From the NCBI RefSeq assembly GCF_002834295.1, contig NZ_PISP01000001.1:434001-498000 (forward strand): a DNA stretch of 64,000 nt, read 5' to 3'. The stretch is from Rhodohalobacter barkolensis (GTDB taxonomy: Bacteria > Bacteroidota > Rhodothermia > Balneolales > Balneolaceae). How positions within the stretch are numbered: the first letter of the stretch is position 1; each line of letters starts with the position of its first letter. The notes beneath the pieces were generated by a model, which worked only from the letters and a program-made list of their open reading frames with translations, did no database searches and was not told where the DNA came from. The translations under genes were made by a program, and so were the position numbers. Positions 1,747 through 21,247 of the stretch are shown here, piece after piece.

Positions 1747-2583
1747 TTAATTTTCAAGGTCATAAACCCGAACGTAGTCCACCATCATGGTTTGTGGAAA
1801 AGGAGTAAGGGATGTAGGAGAGCCTACAAATGTTCCGCCAACCGCTACGTTCAGGATGATATAAAATGTATTGTCATTGAATACCCATTCTCCGTTGACA
1901 TCTTCAGGAGTGATGGTATTGTAAAGGATATCGTCTACATAGTACCTGATAAAATCGGGTCCCCACTCAATGGCAAAAATATGAAATTCAGTATCAAATC
2001 GTCCATTAGGTATTGTGTACGAATCAGTTACTGCGTTTCCACCCGAGTAACCGGGACCATGAACGCTTCCGTGGATTACCGTAGGTTGCTGACCACGATA
2101 TTCCATAATATCGATCTCACCAATTTGTGGCCAGGTTTCCGTACCGCCTGAATCGTCGCCAAGCAGCCAGAATGCCGGCCAGATACCCTGGCCAAAAGGA
2201 AGCTGAATGCGAGCTTCAAAACGCCCATAGGTTCTTTCGAAAAGACCTCTTGTCAGAATCTTAGCTGACGTGTAAGAAGAGCCTTCGAACGACTCTTCTC
2301 TAGCCGTGATCTGCAGCATTCCATCTTCAACCCGAATATTTTCGGATCTGTCGGTGTAATACTGCAGCTCATTGTTTCCCCAGCCGGGCTGGCCAAATAT
2401 CTCCTCACCGGTTCCGATGTCGTAAATCCACAGGTCTGAGTCTACAGATCCGTCTACATCGAATTCATCCTGCCAGATGATCTCTCTGGTGACTTCTTCT
2501 TCAGGTTCGTTTTCTGTTCCGCAACCCGTCAGGATAACTAAAAAGGAACCCAGGTAGAGGAGAAATTTGAATAATGCTTTCAT
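1747..2583 (-). CDS. GH16 endo-beta-1,3-glucanase (laminarinase-type), lipoprotein
   Basis: A 278-residue secreted glycoside hydrolase of family 16, which cleaves beta-1,3 or mixed-linked glucans with retention. The N-terminus is a lipoprotein signal with lipobox LTGC (Cys21), so it is membrane anchored, probably at the cell surface. The GH16 signature EIDIME spans residues 156-161, with Glu156 as nucleophile and Glu161 as acid/base, preceded by GIWPAFWLLG. The extra Met in the ExDxME form is typical of laminarinases rather than lichenases. Length fits a single catalytic domain without a binding module. It lies between the glycan-binding lipoprotein and the phosphorylase-like gene, all on one strand, which supports a beta-glucan role. 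Confidence 0.9.
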   Translation of the reverse strand: MKALFKFLLYLGSFLVILTGCGTENEPEEEVTREIIWQDEFDVDGSVDSDLWIYDIGTGEEIFGQPGWGNNELQYYTDRSENIRVEDGMLQITAREESFEGSSYTSAKILTRGLFERTYGRFEARIQLPFGQGIWPAFWLLGDDSGGTETWPQIGEIDIMEYRGQQPTVIHGSVHGPGYSGGNAVTDSYTIPNGRFDTEFHIFAIEWGPDFIRYYVDDILYNTITPEDVNGEWVFNDNTFYIILNVAVGGTFVGSPTSLTPFPQTMMVDYVRVYDLEN

Positions 2584-2651: not shown

Positions 2652-4070
2652 CTATCTGCGCAGGTAAATATTGTCGACGTAGATTGTTTCACCTGCTAAA
2701 CCGGGCCCCAAGTCGCTGTCTAATACGATCTGGCCAAGATTTGATTTATTAGCCATGCCCGAAATATCAAGCTCTATTGTTATCCATTCACCGGATTCTA
2801 ATTCAGGATTGCTAGCAGAAGTAGCTTCCTCGGTATCATCACCGCCACCAAACGAATCATCTGCACCGAAGTCTCTAAGGGTTACTCTTAGTGTAGAGTT
2901 ATCAGGAACTTCATCCGGGAAGAAAACATCCATACTTAGGATATTCATATCGCTTCCATCTATAGTCGGTACGTTCTGATTGAACTCAATACCTACAAAG
3001 TTGAAGTTTTCATATCCCAATACGTCGTTACCATCCACTGTAAAGTCACTTGAAGTAGTGGTTTGAAACGGCTCATAAAAGCCATTATAGAAATCAACGG
3101 GCACGTTTTCGTAAGCGTCACTGAAAATAGAGATGACATCATCCGGATCTTCGGTTGGTGTAGGGGCCGGAGTGAAATTACCGATTGATTCGATGATCAG
3201 TGCACCACTGGCATTCAAGTCACCCAAAGTTGCAGTTATTTCTGCAGTACCCTGGCCAACAACGTTTACTTCTCCGTCTTCATTTACTGTAGCAACACTT
3301 TGGTCGGATGAACTGAATGAATAGTATGCCGGTGCAGCACCCACGGTTACATCCACTCCGTTAGCCTGGTTTACGGTAAATGTAAGACCGCTAACCGAAG
3401 TATTTGAACCAATAAAACTGGTTTGAGTCTCTTCGTTTCCATTCAAAATAGCCGGTCGTGCCTGTGCCAAGCCGGGAAGGTTTTCGTATTGGAGTTCATC
3501 CACCCAAAATGAGTAACCATCTCCATCTTCAGGCCCTTCAGCATACCAAAACAGTCCCTGTTCTGAGGTCAGAACGGATGGATCAGGGATAGGAATAATA
3601 TACTTTTCCCAATTGGTGGTAAGCTTGAGATCATTCCGTGTTACCGCATATTGATCACCTAAGAAATCCTGACCGAAACCGATATCATTGATTGATCCGG
3701 CTTTTGTTCCTTTGGCATAAAACGTTAATGCATTGTAAGAAGTTAAATTTCTCCCTCCGTTTTCATCTCTGAATATTGCACCGGCATATGCTCCTGCCGG
3801 ATCACCTACGTTTGGTACATCAAAGCGCATGGATGCTGCAGAGTTATCATAGGTATCATCTTCATCCACGCTGAATGCATCCTGTCTTGAATCTTCGTAA
3901 GGATAGTATTCAAGTCCGGCACTAAAGCCATCAATAAATACTTCAGGGTTAGCCGGGAAATCCGGTTCTTCCAGGCCGTCAACGCTTCGCTCACAGCCCT
4001 GTGCAAAGAACATGAGTAGCAAGCCTGCCAGTATCGTAAGTTGGGTGCTTTTTAATTCCAAAAATTTCAT
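2652..4070 (-). CDS. Surface glycan-binding lipoprotein with Ig-like (BIG2-type) domain
   Basis: A 472-residue lipoprotein (lipobox AQGC, Cys26). Three parts can be seen: a beta-rich N-terminal module (about 30-200) that resembles a carbohydrate-binding jelly roll; a bacterial Ig-like domain (about 220-300) with the typical pattern of SSSDQSVATVNEDGEV followed by GTAEITAT; and a C-terminal module (about 310-472) with GEWITIELDISG and IYVDNIYLRR, also typical of jelly-roll binding modules. No catalytic motif is visible. Position between a surface glycosidase-barrel protein and a GH16 enzyme suggests it holds the polysaccharide at the outer membrane, as SusE/F-type proteins do. The ligand (beta-1,3-glucan) is inferred from neighbours only. 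Confidence 0.7.
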   Translation of the reverse strand: MKFLELKSTQLTILAGLLLMFFAQGCERSVDGLEEPDFPANPEVFIDGFSAGLEYYPYEDSRQDAFSVDEDDTYDNSAASMRFDVPNVGDPAGAYAGAIFRDENGGRNLTSYNALTFYAKGTKAGSINDIGFGQDFLGDQYAVTRNDLKLTTNWEKYIIPIPDPSVLTSEQGLFWYAEGPEDGDGYSFWVDELQYENLPGLAQARPAILNGNEETQTSFIGSNTSVSGLTFTVNQANGVDVTVGAAPAYYSFSSSDQSVATVNEDGEVNVVGQGTAEITATLGDLNASGALIIESIGNFTPAPTPTEDPDDVISIFSDAYENVPVDFYNGFYEPFQTTTSSDFTVDGNDVLGYENFNFVGIEFNQNVPTIDGSDMNILSMDVFFPDEVPDNSTLRVTLRDFGADDSFGGGDDTEEATSASNPELESGEWITIELDISGMANKSNLGQIVLDSDLGPGLAGETIYVDNIYLRR

Positions 4071-4085: not shown

Positions 4086-7000
4086 TTAGTTGGTAAGATT
4101 AATTTGAATGTATGTTCTGAATTCCCACTCACTTCCATTGTCAAATCCGAAAGCAGTAGGATCGGGGACAAGTTCCCCGCTTGGATCCATCATATACGTC
4201 GGCGCATATCGGGGTGAGAAATCATCCAGCGATCTCCATGTACCTCTTACACCAATTCTGGTAGAAGGCAGGTCAAACCAGTCCGGTCTTCCTAAATCTG
4301 TAGAGAAGTCTGCCATCAACTGAAGAGGGAATGTTAAGTTGAAATCTCTGTGGTAATCGTAAGGCCCCCAATCATTCACTTTAACGTGAGAGCTGAATTT
4401 TAACTGCTTATAGATCATCCTCAAGTCACCGCCAAATCGGGTAATCAGTCTTGGGTCACTGCCATTTGCCTGTGCTTCTCCTCCATATAGATTGGCAATG
4501 ATGCCCAAATCCCGGTTAACTTTAGAGACAATTCGTGCATTCACTTCCCAAAGTCCGTTTAATCCGAAAATATTTTCATCGGGTACGGGTGGAGCTCCCG
4601 GGAACGGAAAGAATGTTCTTCCGTCGGGTAAAATACCAATGGCTGCATCCTGTGTTGTTGGCAGATATCTGTATACGAAACCAAGGCTCATTGCCAATGC
4701 GGCATCTTCTGCCATATCATTATCCCACTCATACATGTAGGTGCCCGGGGTTGGATCGTATGTTAACAGAAGTTCACCGGCTACCTGCTCTCTGTTGGAT
4801 CTTACCACAAATGGATCATCCAGAATGTTTCGTGGCCTTGCCGGAGCATCAACACCGGAAGGAATAGGTCCTTCAATCGGTTTTTGCCATAGAAAGTTAG
4901 GAGCTACCTGGATGTTACCAAGCATGTATGTAAACCCGGATAGGAAATTATACTGGTTTCCGCTGCCGCTGTCTTTCAGTCTCCAGCCGGTGAATGTCAT
5001 TGTTTGATCTGCACCACCTTGTGCAACCAATCCCATAACTGCAGACTGTGCGTACCAGTTAAACCGGCCTCCTTCGTAGGTGAGTTTTAATTTACCACCC
5101 CAGTTATCTTCCGGTTTAATCTCATCTACATATACATCGTAGCCGCCATCGGCCTGTTCTCGAGCAAGTTGAAACTCACGGCCATTCAGAGGCTCACCGG
5201 CCCAAATACCGCCCAGCTCAACTCCAAAGTTTCCAAAATCACGACCCGCATAGAGTGTCAATCGTCTTGTTTTGGGTTGAGGAATCGCAAATGAACTTCC
5301 AGTTAACCCTTGTCGCTCAATATCTTCATGAAAGATACCGGTTAATGATGTTTGTCCGATATCTCTGGAGTATTTCAGTAAAACAGCCGGGTTTGCTCCC
5401 CACCATAATTGAGGACCAAAGGCAAGCTTCGCTCCATCAAGCATTTTTTTACCTTCCGCTTCGAATCCAAATGGAGCCTCGCCGTTATAGGTAAAGATCT
5501 GGTCGCCGTAATTCGATTCCGGGTATAAACCGAAGAAGTCTCCTTCATAACCCCAATGGTAGTGCCCAGTGCGGTAAAATCCATCAAGATTGAAATATTC
5601 ATCATTCCAGGAGTAACTGGCACTGTAAATATCAACCCGATTGAGTGATTCGGCCGTAACGTTTCCATTTTGCCCCATAAGCTCTACCGCTCGTCCGCGG
5701 TTTTCGTAAAAGATTTCATCAATTGGGTTCTCTGCAACATTCCCCAAAACGTTTGCAACCACTTCGGCTCTCATGTTTGGAGATGGATTTGCTTCCACTC
5801 CTATTAAGTAGGATTGCATGTGATCAAAACCCAGTTCATCAGGGTACTGAACAACATCCGGATCGGCATCATCCGGTGTGGTGATCTTGCTGCCACCCGT
5901 ATTGTAGGTTTCAAACATGGCAGTAAATCTGCTCAGTGAAATAAGATCGGAACCGCCACCGCCTGAACCGCCACCTGCGCTTGCACGAAGATTTTCGCCA
6001 ACTACAGATATTTCAGAAAAGTGACTTTCCAGATCTACAGTATCTACACCCATTTCATAGGGTTCGAATTCGTGTACTTCTTTCAGTACATAGTATGCCG
6101 CAGTTGGATAAAGCTCATAAAAACCGTTCAAATCGGTTGGTCCTTTCGCCATAATGCCAAACCACTCTTCATTCATATTATTTTCGCCGGGAACATGGTC
6201 AAACTCATATCCGCCGTTTTCCCATGATGCGTTGGTATCGTGAGTGTCGAGTCCCTCGGTTTGTCCGTATTTCCACCAGCCATCACTGAACTGAAAAGTA
6301 AAACCACCAATGGAGTTATTACTGCCGCCTAAACCGGCTGCATTTCTGTAAATATCTTTCCAGTTACTTAATAAATAGGTTGCTTGTGGGATCTGCGCCT
6401 CTTGCAATGTTTGAGCGTTAAATCTATCTGAGCCAAATTCAGTAAGAAGAACAGGTTTTCCATACTCATTTTGAACTCTTTCATACAGGTCGGTGAAAGT
6501 CATTCCCCGATAAGTATTCGTTCCAAAGATGTCCATATCGGGAACTAATTCGGCAACAAGGTCCATAAAAAGCAGATCACCGTTTGCCATAGCAATAGGC
6601 CGGCTGCTGTCTATAGCTTTCATCTCTACAGCCGCTTCATTGAAGAGTTCATACATGGCCCTTGCTCGGATTGTAGATTCTCTGTCCTCAATAGGTATAT
6701 CTTCGGTTTCAGCTCCGCCCCAGAATAATCCGTAGTTATTTTCATTTCCCAAAAGATATAGAAGCAGCCCCGGGGTATCTCTATACTCTTCTGCGAGTTG
6801 AGTGACTTCCTCAAGCAGTAATTCTTTTACCCTCTCATCTGAATACTCTGTATTAGCCATCCAGGATCCGTCGATTGTTAACCCGTAACGCCCAAATGAG
6901 TGATTGAGCATCGTATAAATGCCGTAATTCTCATATATATATGTAATCCATCTCTTGGGTATTCCTGTATAGACACGTATTACATTCACACCCATATTTT

Positions 7001-7271
7001 TTAACAAGCCCATTTCATAATCCAGAGCCTGCTGTATAAACTCCGGAGACTGATTCCAAAGGCTGTAGTTAAAGTTGGTTCCCCTGGGAAAATAGTCCCA
7101 GTTCATTCCGTTTACCATTAGTGGCTCACCGTCGACGAGAAGTCTCCATCCATCTTCACTCTCTTCAACTACTACATTCTCTGTTTGCGCCATTAAGGGA
7201 ACAGAGTAGATGAAAAAAAGACTCAATATTGATAGACAGATCACAGTAATTTTAGCTTTCATAGAGGTCAT
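4086..7271 (-). CDS. Clan GH-A glycosidase fused to an outer-membrane beta-barrel
   Basis: A 1061-residue protein with signal peptide (cleavage near LMA-QT, residues 28-30). Residues 35-430 form a TIM-barrel glycosidase of clan GH-A (GH2/GH5-like): FVNG-type entry strand, GVNVIRVYTG, acid/base Glu177 in LLGNEN and nucleophile Glu278 in LLTEFGSD. A glycine/serine linker (GGGSGGGGS, about 433-441) follows. Residues 443-1061 are nearly all alternating polar/hydrophobic and aromatic-rich segments separated by turns, ending in FRTYIQINLTN, which reads as a porin-like outer-membrane beta-barrel rather than a binding module. I infer a surface hydrolase tethered to its own barrel. First gene of the cluster; an in-frame second Met lies at residue 4. 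Substrate family is not determined from sequence alone. Confidence 0.7.
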   Translation of the reverse strand: MTSMKAKITVICLSILSLFFIYSVPLMAQTENVVVEESEDGWRLLVDGEPLMVNGMNWDYFPRGTNFNYSLWNQSPEFIQQALDYEMGLLKNMGVNVIRVYTGIPKRWITYIYENYGIYTMLNHSFGRYGLTIDGSWMANTEYSDERVKELLLEEVTQLAEEYRDTPGLLLYLLGNENNYGLFWGGAETEDIPIEDRESTIRARAMYELFNEAAVEMKAIDSSRPIAMANGDLLFMDLVAELVPDMDIFGTNTYRGMTFTDLYERVQNEYGKPVLLTEFGSDRFNAQTLQEAQIPQATYLLSNWKDIYRNAAGLGGSNNSIGGFTFQFSDGWWKYGQTEGLDTHDTNASWENGGYEFDHVPGENNMNEEWFGIMAKGPTDLNGFYELYPTAAYYVLKEVHEFEPYEMGVDTVDLESHFSEISVVGENLRASAGGGSGGGGSDLISLSRFTAMFETYNTGGSKITTPDDADPDVVQYPDELGFDHMQSYLIGVEANPSPNMRAEVVANVLGNVAENPIDEIFYENRGRAVELMGQNGNVTAESLNRVDIYSASYSWNDEYFNLDGFYRTGHYHWGYEGDFFGLYPESNYGDQIFTYNGEAPFGFEAEGKKMLDGAKLAFGPQLWWGANPAVLLKYSRDIGQTSLTGIFHEDIERQGLTGSSFAIPQPKTRRLTLYAGRDFGNFGVELGGIWAGEPLNGREFQLAREQADGGYDVYVDEIKPEDNWGGKLKLTYEGGRFNWYAQSAVMGLVAQGGADQTMTFTGWRLKDSGSGNQYNFLSGFTYMLGNIQVAPNFLWQKPIEGPIPSGVDAPARPRNILDDPFVVRSNREQVAGELLLTYDPTPGTYMYEWDNDMAEDAALAMSLGFVYRYLPTTQDAAIGILPDGRTFFPFPGAPPVPDENIFGLNGLWEVNARIVSKVNRDLGIIANLYGGEAQANGSDPRLITRFGGDLRMIYKQLKFSSHVKVNDWGPYDYHRDFNLTFPLQLMADFSTDLGRPDWFDLPSTRIGVRGTWRSLDDFSPRYAPTYMMDPSGELVPDPTAFGFDNGSEWEFRTYIQINLTN

Positions 7272-14044: not shown

Positions 14045-17000
14045 GTGCCAATTAAACGTTTCTTAATACTCTTTCCAATACTGGGATGGATGATGCATTT
14101 AGCTTCAGCGACAGAGGTATATGCTCAACAGACAGATCAGGAAGAAGGAGATATTGAGGAGAATGGTGAATTTCAAAATACGTTCAGGGGTATCAAAGGA
14201 GATCAGGTAGCCCCAATTTATTTTCAGCCCATCCCAAAACTCTACTTTATCACACTTCCGGCGGAAGAGATTTATATCGAAACCCGAAACGACGGCGGGT
14301 TTTATGTCGAAAAACGAATTGAAGGATATCGGTCCGGCTTTCCTGTTTCGGTATCATTTCCAAAATATGCCGACATGAACCGTGAACGGGTTAAACAGGA
14401 AAACTGGCAGCAGTTAATCCGAGAAACAAACCGACGGGATGAAACGCAGCGCGGTATTTTTGATATGAGTGTGGACATTCCGGGTGGCAGGGAATCTGCA
14501 TTCTCGTCTATTTTTGGAAGCCCGGAGGTGAATCTGAGAGTCAATGGAGTAGCCACCATGAATGTGGGTGCCTCTGTACAGCGATCTGAAGATCCCAGTT
14601 TACCGCCGGATCAGCAGACACGGATCGACCCTACTTTTGATCAAAGTCTTCAACTTAATATCCAGGGAAATATCGGTGATAAACTGACGATTCAAACCGA
14701 TTGGGATACCGAGAGGCAATTTGATTACCAAAACCGGTTGAGTATCTCCTACGAGGGATATGAGGATGAGATCATCAAGAGTATTGAGATGGGAAATGTG
14801 AACATGAACACCGGAAATTCACTGATTCGCGGCAGTGGTGCTCTGTTTGGAATTAAATCGGTTGCAGAATTAGGTTCATTTAGGCTTACGTCCATTATTT
14901 CTCAACAGGACGGTGAGAGCAATGTGGAAACCATTAGCGGTGGTTCGCAGGAACAGCCGATTCAGCTTCGTCCGGCCGATTACAGTGATGACCGGCACTT
15001 TTTCCTGGATTACTATACTCGTCAGGAATTTGAAAACAGTATGGCAAACCCTCAGCAGCTGTCTCAAACGCTTCAGATAGCCGATGTTGAGGTGTGGGTA
15101 CTGCGAGAAAATATACAGTCAGATGAGGGCGCTCGTCTCGCTGTAGCTTTAGCAGATTTGGGAGTTGTAAGAGACGGGACGGAAGGTTTTTTGCCACCGG
15201 AAAATGATCAGGATGTGTTTGATGCAGCACTTTTAGATCAATTTCGTGACCCGCAAACCGGAGTTTCTCCAGAGGATTTGGGAGTGACCGATTCAAGGAA
15301 TTTTGAAGAGGGATATTTTACACCGCTGGAAGAAGGCACGGATTACACCATCAATAAAATTTCAGGGTATATATCGCTTCGAAGGGGATTAGGGTCGAGA
15401 GAAGTGTTGGCAATTTCGTTCACCTATAGAGGAAGCAATAATGAAATAATTAATGTAGGTGAACTTAACCGAAGCGGTAACGACAGGATTTTCCTGAAAA
15501 TGCTGCGTCCGCAAAATGTATCGACAGATAGTGATCTTTTTAACCTGACTATGCGGAACATCTACTCATTAGGTGTGAGTGATATCAATCGGGAAAGCCT
15601 TGAGCTCGAGTTGGAATTTACGGAGCAAAATATTGCCCGCGACCGGCTGCCGGGAAGATCTGCAACGCTTCTGCAGGATTTGGGACTGGATCGGGTTGAC
15701 TCGCAGGGAGCTTTGGAACCCGATAACCAGCTTGATTTTGGCACAGGTACATTAGATCCTCAAAACGGATTGGTCATATTTCCATATCTGGAGCCATTCG
15801 GAAATCGTATCCGTGAGGTTCTGCAAGATTCTCCGGCTTCGGAAGAGGAGATTGAGAGATTATCCTATGATGAACTGTATGAAGAGAGAAACCGGAATGC
15901 ATCTCAAAGTTCAAAGAATGGATTTTATAGATTCAGCGGTACATCAAGGGGCGGACTGCAGGAGAACTATAACCTGGGATTTGCACTGGTTGAGGGGTCA
16001 GTCAGAGTTTATGCAAATGGTAATCAGCTTCAGGAGAATGTAGATTATCAGGTAGATTATTCATTTGGAAGCATTACCATCCTCAATGATCGATACACCG
16101 CACCGGGGCAGGATATTCGGATTGAATATGAGAATCAGGCGCTGACTTCCATTGAACAGAAGACATTCACCGGTCTGCGCGCAGAATACGACATCACCAA
16201 TAATTTCCAGGTTGGAGGCACTTTCTTTCGGTTCAACGAGCGGCCGCTGGATGATAAAATCCGAATCGGTGATGAGCCAATCAGTAACTCAGTGATTGGC
16301 CTGGATGCAAATGCTCGTTTCGATACTCCATTTTTAACGCGCGCAGTGGATTGGCTTCCTCTGATCCAGACCCGCGAAAACTCAGAGTTTGAATTCAGCG
16401 GCGAGTTTGCACAACTCAGGCCGGGAGTATCAGAAACCCGTGCTGTACGCCGGGCAATCCGTAATAATGAGTTGTTTGAAGATGAGGAGGAGGGATTGTC
16501 TTTCGTGGATGATTTTGAAGGATCAAATATTAAAATCAATCTTCTGAATGCGACAAGATGGAATTTGGCGGCAGCTCCGGCAGCTGTACCGGGGTATGAG
16601 CCGGATGAATCCATTTTTTTAGAAGAAGATTTCCCGGGAGCTCCGGTTTCTGACCAGCAATCGAGACTGGATCGTTCTGATCTGAGGTCGAAACTATCCT
16701 GGTACTCCATCCCCAGAAATATTTCGACAATTTTAGGAAATGTAGACTTTACGCCGGAATCTCAACCTGTTGAGGTTACCGATGTATTTCCCGGCAGGGA
16801 GACACAAAATCCACAAGAAGAGATTATCACAACACTGGATGTATTTTATGATCCAACTTCCCGGGGGCAGTATAACTACAACTCTGAACTGAGAACGTTA
16901 CTCGAAGATGAGCCGGAACGAACCTGGGGAGGAATGACGGCCGTGATACCCTCCGGACAGGAGGATTTTTCTCAAAACAATATTGAATTTCTGGAGTTTT

Positions 17001-20000
17001 GGGTTCAGCCGGTACTCGAAGACGGACAACCGGCACAAACAGGCACGATTGACGATTTTGACGGCAAAATATATATCGATGTAGGTTTGGTTACAGAAGA
17101 TGTAGTTCCAAACTCCAAGCTAAATACAGAGGATGGACTTGCTCTTAATCCCGAGACCTTGATTCTGGATAGCCAGATGAATCCAAGATCCGCTCTGCCA
17201 GCTAATCCTCCTCCGCCTGAAGGACAGTTTTCTAATGAGAACAGAGAGATCGAAGATGTTGGCCTCGATGGGATGCCAAATTCAGGTGGCGTCAATGGGC
17301 TGAATGAGCAGACGATATTTGAGGAATTTGTAGATCAGATGCGTGTGCAGTGGGGAGCCGGGAGTGAGGAATTTGAGCAAATTTCTTCCGACCCTTCAAA
17401 CGACGACTATATTTTCTACGGTGAGTCTCTGGTTCAGGATTTGCCGCTTCATGAACGATTTCACAGGATGCTCGGGCACGGTGATGGCAATACACCAATT
17501 GATCAAAGCGAAAGAAGAGCTTCTACCAACCGGCCTAATACGGAAGGCTTGGTTAATCCATCAACAGTAGCTCTGAACAACTCCTATTTTCAATACGAGG
17601 TAGAGTTGAATCCGGCCGATGAGAATAGGTTGGAAATCGGTTCACCGGGTACATATATCGTAGACCGGGTCCCGGGATCCCGTCAGCAAGATCGTTGGTA
17701 CCAGGTACGGATTCCACTCGATGAATTCAAGCGAACTGTGGGTGATATAAACGACTTTCAGAATATCACATACATTCGAATCTGGATGTCGGGTTACGAA
17801 CAACCCTTTACGCTGCGCTTTGCATCTCTGGAATTTGTTGGGAGTCAGTGGCGGCAGGATGAGAATATAAATTCCCAGAGTGACCCCAATGCGGATATTA
17901 AAATCAGTACGATAAATATTGAGGAGAATTCAAATCGGCGCCCCATTCCGTACCGGCAACCAAGGGGTGCAATTCGTGCACAAAATCGAGGTACGCAGCT
18001 GCAATCCCTGCAGAATGAACAGTCAATTGTTCTTCAAGGAGAAAATATTGGTCCGGGCTCTCTTCAGTTGGTTAAACGGGTATATCCCGGTGGGTTGAAC
18101 TTGCTCAACTACTCCAACATGCGAATGTTTGTACATGGGGAAGGATATGAGGAGAGAGGAGAGGCAGAACTGGTGATGCGCTTCGGCAACGACCTTGAAA
18201 ATAATTACTACGAATACAGGCAGCCAGTAACCCCATCGAACCCCAATTTCCCTTATCAGGAGTTTGATCCGGGCGGTAATCAGCTTATTGATGAAGAAGC
18301 TGAGCAGGTGTGGAGGTATGACGAAAACAGCATGAATATTGTGCTGTCGGCATTCAATCAATTGAAGCAGCTCAGGGATCAAGAGGGGGGCGGCTCACTA
18401 TCTGAAGTGTATGAGAGATCAGATATTCTGGAAGATGCTGTTCCCGGCGCAGTGGTTGCCATTAAAGGAAATCCATCTTTGGGCAGAGTGTCTGAGGTGG
18501 GTATGGGAATTAGAAATCCGTTCGATCCGGATAATCCGAGTGGCCCCGGTACGCCGATTTTGAATGCTGAACTTTGGCTGAATGAATTAAGGGTTTCAGG
18601 TTTTGATAATGAAACCGGTTGGGCCGCAAATGCAAAATCATCTCTGAAAATAGCTGACTTTGCCACGCTTAATGCAAATTTAATTCGGCAGACTCAAGGC
18701 TTTGGTTCACTGGATTCCCGTTTGGGACAAAGGAGAGTAAGTAACGAAATTGCGTATGACCTATCTACTACTGTCAATCTGGATAGCTTTATACCGGAGC
18801 GGTACGGCTGGAATATTCCGGTAAGCCTGTCGACAAGAAGATCAAATTCAGTTCCCAAATATTTACCGAATCAGGGAGATGTTCGCCTCACAGATTTTGA
18901 ACAGGCTGTTCGTTCCAGAACGGATTTAAATGAAGATGAGCAGGATCAACTCATTGAACAGCAGATCCGTGATGTTGAGACCTATTCCGAGAGCTATTCG
19001 GTAAACCTGTCGAACCTGTCCAAGCAAAATTCACAAAATTGGTTAGCTCGATACACTCTGGATAACACCACATTCAACTATGTATATAATACTACAGACG
19101 GCCGTACGCCGGAGTATTTATTTCAGGATAATTGGAATTATAACGCCTCTGTGAGGTATAATCATAACTTCAGGACTGCCAGATATGTCAGGCCCTTTAA
19201 TCTTCTCTCCAACATTCCGCTGGCCGGAACTCTGGCCGGTTTACAGCTGGGAATTACACCCACAAACTTCTCATCATCACTGAGTACCCGCCGTTCGTAT
19301 GAAGAGAGGAAGAGAAGAACGTTACAGAATCAGCAGGAGTTTGCCCTGCAGCAAACGCATAGCTTTACATATACCAGCAATCTGGGATTTGGTTATAATC
19401 TGACTCCTTCCGTATCAACCTCATTTCAGTCGCAAAGTATTTTTGACCTGGGCCGGGCTTCTATAAAAGACGCAGGATTAACCGGGGTAGACAGTGATGC
19501 ATTTGAAACTGAATCTTCATTTGATGTATTCCGTGATCTGATCTTTGATGACCTCTCTCCTCGCCGCAGCAGCTATTCGGAGAACTATACGGCAAGCTGG
19601 CAACCCCGATTGAGCCAAATATCAGTTCTGAATTGGTTGAACTATAATGCACGATATTCGGGCGGCTATCGGTGGGAAAATTCACCGTTCGGCTCCAATC
19701 AGGGATCTCGTGTATCCAATACATTCAGGCTCGACCATACCCTTAGAGTAAACACGGAGACACTGCTGAATAAAATTCCTTTTTATGAAAATGCAGTTGA
19801 AGCAGACAGGGATGAATCGCGCGAACGTGAAATCAGCAGAGACAGTGATGAGGAATCGGCAGGCTATACGTTTGGAGAACAGTTTAGCTATTACGCCAGA
19901 AAAACATTCCTGGCCGTGTTTAGCTTACGCAGCGCAGACATCAATTATAGCAGTTCAAAAACCGGTTCTCAGGCCGGTTATGACGGAGGTTCAAGCTTCT

Positions 20001-21247
20001 TTGACATGTTCGGGGGAGATAATTTTACCCCTTCATTTGGATACAGAATTGGTATTGAAGAGAGAATTAGACAGGATAGATTGATTTCCAATCCGGACGG
20101 TACAGGTTCAATTCAGATTCCGGCTAACAACACATATTCAGATAACATCACGCTGGGAACTCGACTCAACCCATTTACGAATCTGTCGATCGATTTAAGC
20201 TGGCAAACGCAATGGGACGAACGCCGCACCGAATCCATTTCATTGAGTGCCAACAATGAAATCTCTTCTGTAGTGAGTTCTTCCGGCAATATAAGTTCGA
20301 GTATCTGGGCTTTTGGCAGTGGCTACGAGAAATTGTTCAGGAATCAGCTTCAATCCGCTTTTGACGGTATGAGCAGTGTGGACAACGTTATCGGAGCGGA
20401 TAACGGTAATACGGTGTTGAACAGCGTTGCACTTCAGGAAGACTTCAGAAAAGCCTATATGGGCAGGGCACCAACGATTGGAGACAAAAACTTTACTCCG
20501 ATTCCTCTGCCAAACTGGAGAATCAACTGGACGGGTATTGAGGAAATATTTCCTTGGATTGGCCGCTATATGCAGCGTGCAACCATTACGCATTCTTACA
20601 GCGGTCTCTACCGTGTGGGCTGGAATTTGAATAACGATGCTGATACTCCGATATCCAGGAGATTGGGAATTTACCAGATAGAGGATACCCGCCCTGAATT
20701 TGATCCGTCTTCTGTAAATATTGAGAAGAGATTTGCCCCGCTGGTTCAACTGAATATCACCTGGGATAATGGATTGAGAACCCAAATGGGTTATGAAACC
20801 AGTAAACTGACGAGCCTTTCACTCTCGAATACGCAGGTTTCTGAAAGGACATCCAAAGGGGTGAGGGTTCAGTTTGCATATACACTGCGTAATTTCAGGT
20901 TGCCGTTTTTCAGAAGATTGACCAACAATGTGGATCTGACGTTAAACGGAAACTACATCGAAGACTCTGAACAGCGATTTTTACTGGATGCGGATCTGGA
21001 GCGTGCCCTTCAGGTCGACGCCACGCAAATTAACCGGGATCCGGATGCCTATGATTTTAATCCGAGACCGCCGACAGGGCAAACTCGCATTAACACATCT
21101 GCTGTAGTGGGTTATCGTTTCTCCAATACGATTCAGGCAAATTTTGAGTACGGATTTACCCAGATTCTTCCAAAGTCGTCCAGAACGTTTAAGCGAACTA
21201 CGCACGACATCCGCTTTAATATTCGGATCAATATTCGGTCTTCGTAA
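14045..21247 (+). CDS. sprA: SprA/SOV, type IX secretion outer-membrane translocon
   Basis: A 2400-residue protein, the usual size of SprA, the giant beta-barrel through which type IX secretion substrates cross the outer membrane. The GTG start is supported by a signal peptide that begins right after it (LILFPILGW... ending SATEVYAQQ). Family features include VNMNTGNSLIRGSGALFGIK near residue 265, long beta-rich repeats such as GSVRVYANGNQLQENVDYQV, LNELRVSGFD, and the barrel-type end RFNIRINIRSS. Single gene, flanked by divergent lptF. T9SS partners (gldKLMN, porU/V) are not in the window, nor are obvious T9SS cargo C-terminal domains, so it presumably acts with loci elsewhere. Confidence 0.93.
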   Translation: MPIKRFLILFPILGWMMHLASATEVYAQQTDQEEGDIEENGEFQNTFRGIKGDQVAPIYFQPIPKLYFITLPAEEIYIETRNDGGFYVEKRIEGYRSGFPVSVSFPKYADMNRERVKQENWQQLIRETNRRDETQRGIFDMSVDIPGGRESAFSSIFGSPEVNLRVNGVATMNVGASVQRSEDPSLPPDQQTRIDPTFDQSLQLNIQGNIGDKLTIQTDWDTERQFDYQNRLSISYEGYEDEIIKSIEMGNVNMNTGNSLIRGSGALFGIKSVAELGSFRLTSIISQQDGESNVETISGGSQEQPIQLRPADYSDDRHFFLDYYTRQEFENSMANPQQLSQTLQIADVEVWVLRENIQSDEGARLAVALADLGVVRDGTEGFLPPENDQDVFDAALLDQFRDPQTGVSPEDLGVTDSRNFEEGYFTPLEEGTDYTINKISGYISLRRGLGSREVLAISFTYRGSNNEIINVGELNRSGNDRIFLKMLRPQNVSTDSDLFNLTMRNIYSLGVSDINRESLELELEFTEQNIARDRLPGRSATLLQDLGLDRVDSQGALEPDNQLDFGTGTLDPQNGLVIFPYLEPFGNRIREVLQDSPASEEEIERLSYDELYEERNRNASQSSKNGFYRFSGTSRGGLQENYNLGFALVEGSVRVYANGNQLQENVDYQVDYSFGSITILNDRYTAPGQDIRIEYENQALTSIEQKTFTGLRAEYDITNNFQVGGTFFRFNERPLDDKIRIGDEPISNSVIGLDANARFDTPFLTRAVDWLPLIQTRENSEFEFSGEFAQLRPGVSETRAVRRAIRNNELFEDEEEGLSFVDDFEGSNIKINLLNATRWNLAAAPAAVPGYEPDESIFLEEDFPGAPVSDQQSRLDRSDLRSKLSWYSIPRNISTILGNVDFTPESQPVEVTDVFPGRETQNPQEEIITTLDVFYDPTSRGQYNYNSELRTLLEDEPERTWGGMTAVIPSGQEDFSQNNIEFLEFWVQPVLEDGQPAQTGTIDDFDGKIYIDVGLVTEDVVPNSKLNTEDGLALNPETLILDSQMNPRSALPANPPPPEGQFSNENREIEDVGLDGMPNSGGVNGLNEQTIFEEFVDQMRVQWGAGSEEFEQISSDPSNDDYIFYGESLVQDLPLHERFHRMLGHGDGNTPIDQSERRASTNRPNTEGLVNPSTVALNNSYFQYEVELNPADENRLEIGSPGTYIVDRVPGSRQQDRWYQVRIPLDEFKRTVGDINDFQNITYIRIWMSGYEQPFTLRFASLEFVGSQWRQDENINSQSDPNADIKISTINIEENSNRRPIPYRQPRGAIRAQNRGTQLQSLQNEQSIVLQGENIGPGSLQLVKRVYPGGLNLLNYSNMRMFVHGEGYEERGEAELVMRFGNDLENNYYEYRQPVTPSNPNFPYQEFDPGGNQLIDEEAEQVWRYDENSMNIVLSAFNQLKQLRDQEGGGSLSEVYERSDILEDAVPGAVVAIKGNPSLGRVSEVGMGIRNPFDPDNPSGPGTPILNAELWLNELRVSGFDNETGWAANAKSSLKIADFATLNANLIRQTQGFGSLDSRLGQRRVSNEIAYDLSTTVNLDSFIPERYGWNIPVSLSTRRSNSVPKYLPNQGDVRLTDFEQAVRSRTDLNEDEQDQLIEQQIRDVETYSESYSVNLSNLSKQNSQNWLARYTLDNTTFNYVYNTTDGRTPEYLFQDNWNYNASVRYNHNFRTARYVRPFNLLSNIPLAGTLAGLQLGITPTNFSSSLSTRRSYEERKRRTLQNQQEFALQQTHSFTYTSNLGFGYNLTPSVSTSFQSQSIFDLGRASIKDAGLTGVDSDAFETESSFDVFRDLIFDDLSPRRSSYSENYTASWQPRLSQISVLNWLNYNARYSGGYRWENSPFGSNQGSRVSNTFRLDHTLRVNTETLLNKIPFYENAVEADRDESREREISRDSDEESAGYTFGEQFSYYARKTFLAVFSLRSADINYSSSKTGSQAGYDGGSSFFDMFGGDNFTPSFGYRIGIEERIRQDRLISNPDGTGSIQIPANNTYSDNITLGTRLNPFTNLSIDLSWQTQWDERRTESISLSANNEISSVVSSSGNISSSIWAFGSGYEKLFRNQLQSAFDGMSSVDNVIGADNGNTVLNSVALQEDFRKAYMGRAPTIGDKNFTPIPLPNWRINWTGIEEIFPWIGRYMQRATITHSYSGLYRVGWNLNNDADTPISRRLGIYQIEDTRPEFDPSSVNIEKRFAPLVQLNITWDNGLRTQMGYETSKLTSLSLSNTQVSERTSKGVRVQFAYTLRNFRLPFFRRLTNNVDLTLNGNYIEDSEQRFLLDADLERALQVDATQINRDPDAYDFNPRPPTGQTRINTSAVVGYRFSNTIQANFEYGFTQILPKSSRTFKRTTHDIRFNIRINIRSS

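Follow-up and report, generated by a model that had tools for sequence, protein, structure and literature searches.

The locus described here raises the question of why a glycosidase should be joined to an outer-membrane β-barrel, and what such a protein could do for its operon. It lies in a 64,000-nucleotide stretch of Rhodohalobacter barkolensis DNA (contig NZ_PISP01000001.1, positions 434,001 to 498,000; hereafter the window), where the open reading frame (ORF) at 4086-7271, on the minus strand with its ATG at 7271, encodes 1061 amino acids (aa); the plus-strand frame is riddled with stops. A sequence-only reading had proposed a glycosidase joined to its own outer-membrane barrel, which was borne out by the full-length model, the model of residues 441-1061 and Foldseek; that reading had passed over the minus strand, the barrel-less relatives, conservation across the phylum and the partner lipoprotein. 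Our best overall explanation, which we place at a probability of roughly 45%, is that the protein would be the outer-membrane component of a β-1,3-glucan operon, a channel carrying an enzyme at its periplasmic mouth. The protein is laid out as follows.

4086..7271, minus strand: fusion of a GH-A glycosidase and a predicted outer-membrane β-barrel, 1061 aa (ORF translation, alignment)
7185..7271, minus strand: signal peptide, approximately residues 1-29, SPI-like and without a lipobox (read by eye from the sequence)
6057..7184, minus strand: TIM-barrel catalytic domain, residues 30-405 (Pfam, structure model, alignments)
6741-6743, minus strand: Glu177 codon
6438-6440, minus strand: Glu278 codon
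5943..6056, minus strand: linker region, residues 406-443, with helices at 411-419 and 423-432, then a Gly/Ser stretch to 441
4089..5942, minus strand: predicted outer-membrane β-barrel, residues 444-1061, approximately 24-26 strands (model, Foldseek, strand analysis)

Our modeling indicated that the C-terminal part is almost certainly a large outer-membrane barrel. Structure prediction, which the sequence-only reading had named as the check on this region, yielded a β-barrel when residues 441-1061 were modeled alone with 84 sequences (pLDDT, 83.5; pTM, 0.81), with alternating antiparallel strands, long loops and short turns. The best 50 of 316 Foldseek matches (E ≤ 0.001) were all solved outer-membrane barrels, and the barrel matches included BtuB, MOMP, AlgE, OprC, the sucrose porin and LptDE. 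In the VIA comparison, Z values of 13.9 and 13.0 were obtained with the ushers PapC (root mean square deviation [RMSD], 5.0; 363 aligned residues) and FimD, 11.4 with one chain from the Mtr complex, and 10.2 with BT1762-1763. Together with the barrel model, these comparisons ruled out soluble β-sandwich domains for residues 440-1061. DSSP gave approximately 26 strands (range, about 24 to 26); ushers have 24 strands and MtrB has 26. Strand alternation reached 2.70 vs 1.50 ± 0.21 in 2,000 shuffles, whose maximum was 2.21. ScrY, the sucrose porin, and the alginate channel AlgE are likewise outer-membrane barrels and appeared among the structural matches, but they have 16-18 strands and no fused glycosidase, whereas approximately 24-26 strands and an attached enzyme are found here. 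No family in Pfam or NCBIfam matched the barrel, no sequence relatives of it were found in the PDB, and the TonB plug (PF07715) gave no Pfam match up to an E value of 1 in the fusion protein. Descent from a TonB transporter that lost its plug was dropped as a candidate, since no homology was seen (hhalign probability against the TonB-receptor profile, 2%). Seven matches of the query to a viral fold library at E ≤ 0.001 were uninformative.

The enzyme part is a clan GH-A glycosidase (TIM barrel, Asn-Glu acid/base, Glu nucleophile), with Z values of 25.4-27.6 for the listed fold matches of the catalytic domain. The earlier assignment of Glu177 and Glu278 as the catalytic pair was upheld, with N176, E177 and E278 invariant in all 84 aligned relatives. 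The only Pfam match in the whole protein was Glyco_hydro_2_C at residues 82-287 (E, 4.1e-5; PF02836, the GH2 TIM barrel, 23.3 bits vs a cut-off of 21), and the NCBIfam search gave none. In GH2 enzymes, sugar-binding and Ig-like domains precede the TIM barrel; here, Pfam detected no such N-terminal domains up to an E value of 1, and the TIM barrel directly follows the signal peptide. A profile of 33 domains ranked BuGH158 first (8e-9), followed by GH158(Pro) (2.8e-7) and GH2 galactosidases (6.6e-7), while the structural Z values against the best GH158, GH2 and GH157 members were tied (27.6, 27.5 and 27.1). BuGH158 (6PAL), of the same clan, was the best Foldseek and sequence-profile match to the enzyme, although identity to GH158 was 18-21%. 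Its catalytic residues N136-E137 and E220, as given in the accessible text of PMC7157763, align with N176-E177 and E278. According to the same text, BuGH158 ends in an Ig-like domain; it has no outer-membrane barrel, whereas here the barrel or, in barrel-less forms, nothing follows; the Ig-like domain is known from BuGH158 itself rather than from GH158 at large. The sequence comparisons suggest that the enzyme is nearest to the GH158 β-1,3-glucanases, with β-1,3-glucan as its most likely substrate.

The glucan context that had been proposed was supported by the operon, which the fusion gene heads on the minus strand. The following genes lie in the window.

2652..4070, minus strand: Big_2 lipoprotein, 472 aa, starting 15 bp past the fusion gene
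1747..2583, minus strand: GH16 laminarinase-like lipoprotein, 278 aa
1..1715, minus strand: N-terminal part of a β-1,3-oligosaccharide phosphorylase, GH149-like, 1159 aa in an extended stretch (L002) and running past the window

Beyond the window, L002 continues after the phosphorylase with a GH17 lipoprotein, a GH30 enzyme, a fusion of a major facilitator superfamily (MFS) transporter with GH17, and two GH17 genes. The phosphorylase scored 1563 bits against 6hq6, a β-1,3-oligosaccharide phosphorylase, and is presumably a member of GH149; the GH17 lipoprotein scored 581 bits against 6fcg, and the GH16 lipoprotein matched laminarinases. With the laminarin-operon set of GH16, GH17, GH30 and GH149 present, the operon is very likely directed at β-1,3-glucan of the laminarin type. 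The MFS-GH17 fusion (L002:2898-5249, 783 aa) belongs to the same operon, so that one pathway holds two fusions of an enzyme with a membrane protein, one per membrane. Genes with a Y_Y_Y domain (approximately 940-960 aa) adjoin the fusion at L030:6789-9620, where Reg_prop is also found, and at L054:6852-9731; they are possibly operon regulators, with ORFs of like size in many other loci and none seen at the window locus. Elsewhere in the window, positions 14045-21247 hold an ORF of 2400 aa, which we take to resemble the type IX secretion protein SprA.

To place the fusion among its relatives, we compared several genome sets. The near set comprised the best 80 of at least 578 relatives from a genome scan (61-82% identity), all full-length or nearly so, and is therefore biased toward near relatives and fused forms. 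The fusion is conserved across Bacteroidota and Balneolota (59-83% identity among the relatives compared), with mean pairwise identities of 66% for the barrel and 69% for the enzyme; its recurrence in many independent assemblies ruled out a chance fusion or assembly error. A further 249 genomes of one other family, called flavobacterial here because Sediminicola and Gaetbulibacter belong to it (L253 and L075 have identical enzyme domains, as do L257 and L074), were searched with the enzyme domain alone. The domain was matched in 56 of them, in 49 within a frame of 1000 aa or more; among the remaining seven, two were barrel-less (G384, G607), two were broken with barrel sequence kept (G479, G521), and three were either truncated at contig ends or fragmented (G466, G480, G561). 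In the set of 146 relatives, and with weak and partial matches counted, the protein was matched in 59 and the barrel in 37. A standalone porin was sought and rejected: in 345 genomes of the phylum, all 30 near-full barrels lay in frames of at least 1028 aa, three more pieces being short. The 31 near-full barrels of the 146 relatives lay in frames of at least 1007 aa, except in G015 (940 aa, at a contig edge) and G024 (720 aa, with a stop inside the enzyme part), and barrel fragments without the enzyme occurred in G001 and G122. No intact barrel unfused to the enzyme was found in either of these two sets.

A tree built from 97 enzyme domains nested the barrel-less enzymes among the fused relatives of the window protein; on it, the barrel-less state required 10 changes, at least 4 of them forced by starred branches. 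Relics of the first barrel strands were detected in four barrel-less loci (L124, L125, L215 and L217; E, 1e-5 to 0.005), and at L259:8579-10636 the enzyme domain runs in frame into a GH16 domain (Pfam, 488-665), with barrel and lipoprotein missing. The nesting, the relics and this junction indicate that loss accounts for at least some of the barrel-less genes; judged by them, the barrel has been lost repeatedly. The relics sit downstream of the barrel-less enzyme genes, and G002, the source of L125, also holds a stop-free fused copy on another contig. The L259 arrangement looks like a joint deletion of barrel and lipoprotein. Farther afield, a record of Bacteroides finegoldii, a species of the human gut, carries a triad of the fusion (59% identical; annotated as "glycoside hydrolase family 2 TIM barrel-domain containing protein"), the lipoprotein (34%) and GH16, with BglX three genes on, and shows no SusCD annotation in the 29 kb around the module. 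This record (L288, NZ_OY725931.1) is a 45.8-kb "plasmid" that looks chromosomal, as rpsA and the gene for a valine tRNA ligase are also on it; a fimbrillin-family gene lies between GH16 and BglX. A Persicobacter plasmid carries the barrel (61%); in a plasmid collection, 2 of 72,556 records matched. A full fusion on a 5.8-kb contig (L065) of a metagenome-assembled genome labeled Thermoanaerobaculia reflects either transfer or misbinning.

The gene following the fusion tracked the presence of the barrel. The lipoprotein gene came next in all 75 fused loci of the near set with enough sequence, and in none of 20 barrel-less loci, which include the distant homologue L122; 17 of these 20 had the phosphorylase next. 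The flavobacterial set repeated this pattern (33 of 33 barrel-bearing and 0 of 2 barrel-less loci), as did whole genomes, with a full-length lipoprotein in 21 of 21 fused genomes (on two contigs in G113) and 0 of 19 barrel-less ones, four of which held matches to its C-terminal part alone. These three test sets share some of their members, two of the 33 flavobacterial loci also being among the 80, and are linked by phylogeny. The co-occurrence suggests that barrel and lipoprotein are quite likely a functional pair, in which the Big_2 lipoprotein probably binds glycan. A lipobox was present in 87 of 106 lipoproteins. Acidic residues after the lipobox denote surface exposure in other Bacteroidota, and the same is assumed for the loci here; in fused loci, their mean number in the six positions after the lipobox Cys was 2.39 for the lipoprotein, 2.13 for GH16 and 0.60 for GH17, compared with 1.96 for a SusD control (lipobox in 23 of 30). 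As a glycan operon that pairs a large outer-membrane barrel with a lipoprotein of surface type, the arrangement resembles SusC/SusD and TonB-dependent transporters, but no plug was matched, the SusD hidden Markov model (HMM) misses the lipoprotein, and the enzyme is covalently attached.

The side of the membrane on which the enzyme lies was approached through the linker and the barrel model. Residues 431-443 read SAGGGSGGGGSDL; the Gly/Ser linker noted earlier is thus present in the window protein but is a local trait, with seven or more Gly/Ser residues in this protein (P0001) alone among 84, Gly-rich versions in L003 and L083, and DKAAL-type sequences in 77. The helical linker region is retained in barrel-less proteins up to the junction and therefore seems to be the enzyme's own, leaving approximately 12 residues of true linker. 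In the barrel model, a mean of 21 residues follows odd strands and 5 follows even strands. This parity would put both barrel ends inside and thus give the enzyme a periplasmic location, provided that the linker does not pass back through the pore; on the model, a periplasmic enzyme is somewhat favored, and the earlier placement at the pore entrance becomes doubtful, with the periplasmic exit as the better candidate. Lipoprotein signals of barrel-less relatives were dropped as a guide to the enzyme's side owing to ambiguous counts: a lipobox-like pattern was seen in 8 of 21 barrel-less enzymes (mean, 1.12 acidic residues), 3 of these 8 having at least two acidic residues following, and the match in L114 looks false, as do those in 5 of 109 fused enzymes.

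We propose that the lipoprotein and the GH16 lipoprotein would hold and cut glucan at the cell surface, and that oligosaccharides would diffuse in through the barrel as a TonB-independent channel. The fused glycosidase would cleave chains emerging at the periplasmic mouth, keeping the gradient inward, and short oligosaccharides would become available to GH17 in the periplasm, the MFS transporter and the phosphorylase in the cytosol. More broadly, and only tentatively, this could be a second β-glucan uptake machine of Bacteroidota, a giant TonB-independent channel with a glycosidase at its exit and a surface lipoprotein, in which cutting makes diffusion one-way, free of SusCD here and beside it elsewhere. 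Several observations weigh against our explanation. The pTM of the full-length model was 0.57, Foldseek TM-scores for the barrel were low (0.18-0.36 by query; RMSD, 12-18) and, like the moderate VIA Z values, single out no nearest barrel type; in addition, no homology of the barrel sequence to known channels was found. The parity is based on hand-picked DSSP strands of one model, in which some outer loops have just 5-7 residues and two turns have 12 and 21. The acidic-residue signal is not clean, as GH17 lipoproteins in barrel-less loci carried 1.29 such residues (lipobox in 7 of 9), and 5 of the 19 barrel-less genomes are less than 90% complete. Operons that are otherwise alike still include barrel-less versions, which makes the barrel dispensable in some lineages. 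Finally, SusD was present in 12 of the 33 flavobacterial barrel loci and a TonB receptor alone in one more (13-20 kb each), so that the barrel need not be the sole uptake route.

This last point bears on whether the barrel and lipoprotein are a full functional replacement for SusCD. That no SusC/SusD pair is visible, as had been stated, was confirmed by local HMMs, which found neither SusD nor a TonB receptor in the window itself or over another 10 kb to its left (L002); the window operon is thus not a SusCD-type polysaccharide utilization locus (PUL). SusD was also missing from 79 of the near set's 80 fused loci (stretches of 3.5-23 kb), L073 being the exception, and barrel-less genes adjoin SusD in L116 and L120 and in both barrel-less loci of the flavobacterial set, L259 and L271. 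The rule of a barrel instead of SusCD, which the near set suggested, was overturned by the flavobacterial set, and the earlier proposal that the barrel replaces the pair is not general; nor was SusD found in 12 of the 14 barrel-less loci of window relatives that were scanned (4-13 kb each). Full replacement is thus quite improbable, and barrel and SusCD are not mutually exclusive. The flavobacterial SusD genes, together with eight SusD matches in the window's genome (the five listed lie elsewhere), would also suit a barrel that is a mere anchor in place of a lipid, uptake proceeding via another channel or SusCD elsewhere, and some barrel-less relatives look lipidated instead. Yet a plain anchor would hardly conserve its putative outer loops (0.80) above its turns (0.68) and inward strand positions (0.78) above outward ones (0.67), and one lipoprotein accompanies the barrel in every locus tested. 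We regard the anchor as rather improbable, and the barrel probably serves as a channel.

An unlikely reading, though one that deserves attention, is the autotransporter-like display envisaged before, in which the linker threads the barrel and the glycosidase, tethered by the barrel at the entrance of the pore, faces the medium. The N-terminal passenger, helical linker and C-terminal barrel mimic the type V order, the neighboring GH16 and Big_2 lipoproteins look surface-exposed, and the lipobox patterns of barrel-less enzymes could be taken the same way. However, type V autotransporters have a 12-strand C-terminal barrel as opposed to the 24-26 strands modeled here, Pfam found no autotransporter family in the fusion protein, the residues left for crossing the membrane number only approximately 12, and a periplasmic enzyme is also compatible with the parity. 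Export in the manner of PgaA/PgaB or BcsC/BcsZ, with the barrel secreting a polysaccharide that the enzyme edits, would have precedent in the pairs of periplasmic glycosidase and outer-membrane barrel of exopolysaccharide export, but it is scarcely credible for an operon whose genes read as hydrolases, a phosphorylase and an MFS transporter, with no glycosyltransferase among them.

In their accessible text, PMC6246565, PMC5827456 and PMC13188888 describe laminarin PULs with the same gene set by annotation (GH149, GH17, GH30 and GH16). The MFS-GH17 fusion of the Formosa PUL covered by PMC6246565 likewise combines enzyme and transporter in one protein, there in the inner membrane, whereas the fusion described here would lie in the outer membrane and joins a different enzyme to a different carrier. 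A Muricauda PUL of like type includes a "GH2 β-glycosidase" (PMC13188888, as far as its text was available), which, from the gene set, is apparently the fusion gene. The portions consulted of PMC5827456 and PMC6484121 describe phosphorylase clusters, some of them susCD-free in the former; those of PMC10108472 list an unclassified "GH0" in expressed laminarin PULs, and PMC11345257 deals with Maribacter. The available text of these six papers mentions no barrel, and that of PMC6246565, PMC5827456 and PMC13188888 no pair of barrel and lipoprotein. Likewise, no glycosidase-barrel fusion in a laminarin locus was mentioned in the literature searched, which covered few subscription journals and excluded supplements.

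The operon type is thus already published, and the module of enzyme, barrel and lipoprotein is phylum-wide, which makes it more interesting than a single odd protein. Large amounts of carbon flow through the turnover of laminarin, the uptake of which is usually interpreted in terms of SusCD. Here, a barrel without a Pfam or NCBIfam family name is found with an enzyme and a lipoprotein in laminarin-type operons. If the barrel is a channel, predictions based on SusCD would overlook a route, and SusCD-free clusters of carbohydrate-active enzymes would gain an import port. The arrangement also raises the question of whether an enzyme fused to a pore can drive one-way uptake. Collectively, our findings suggest that the fusion may point to a little-studied bacterial route of β-glucan uptake.

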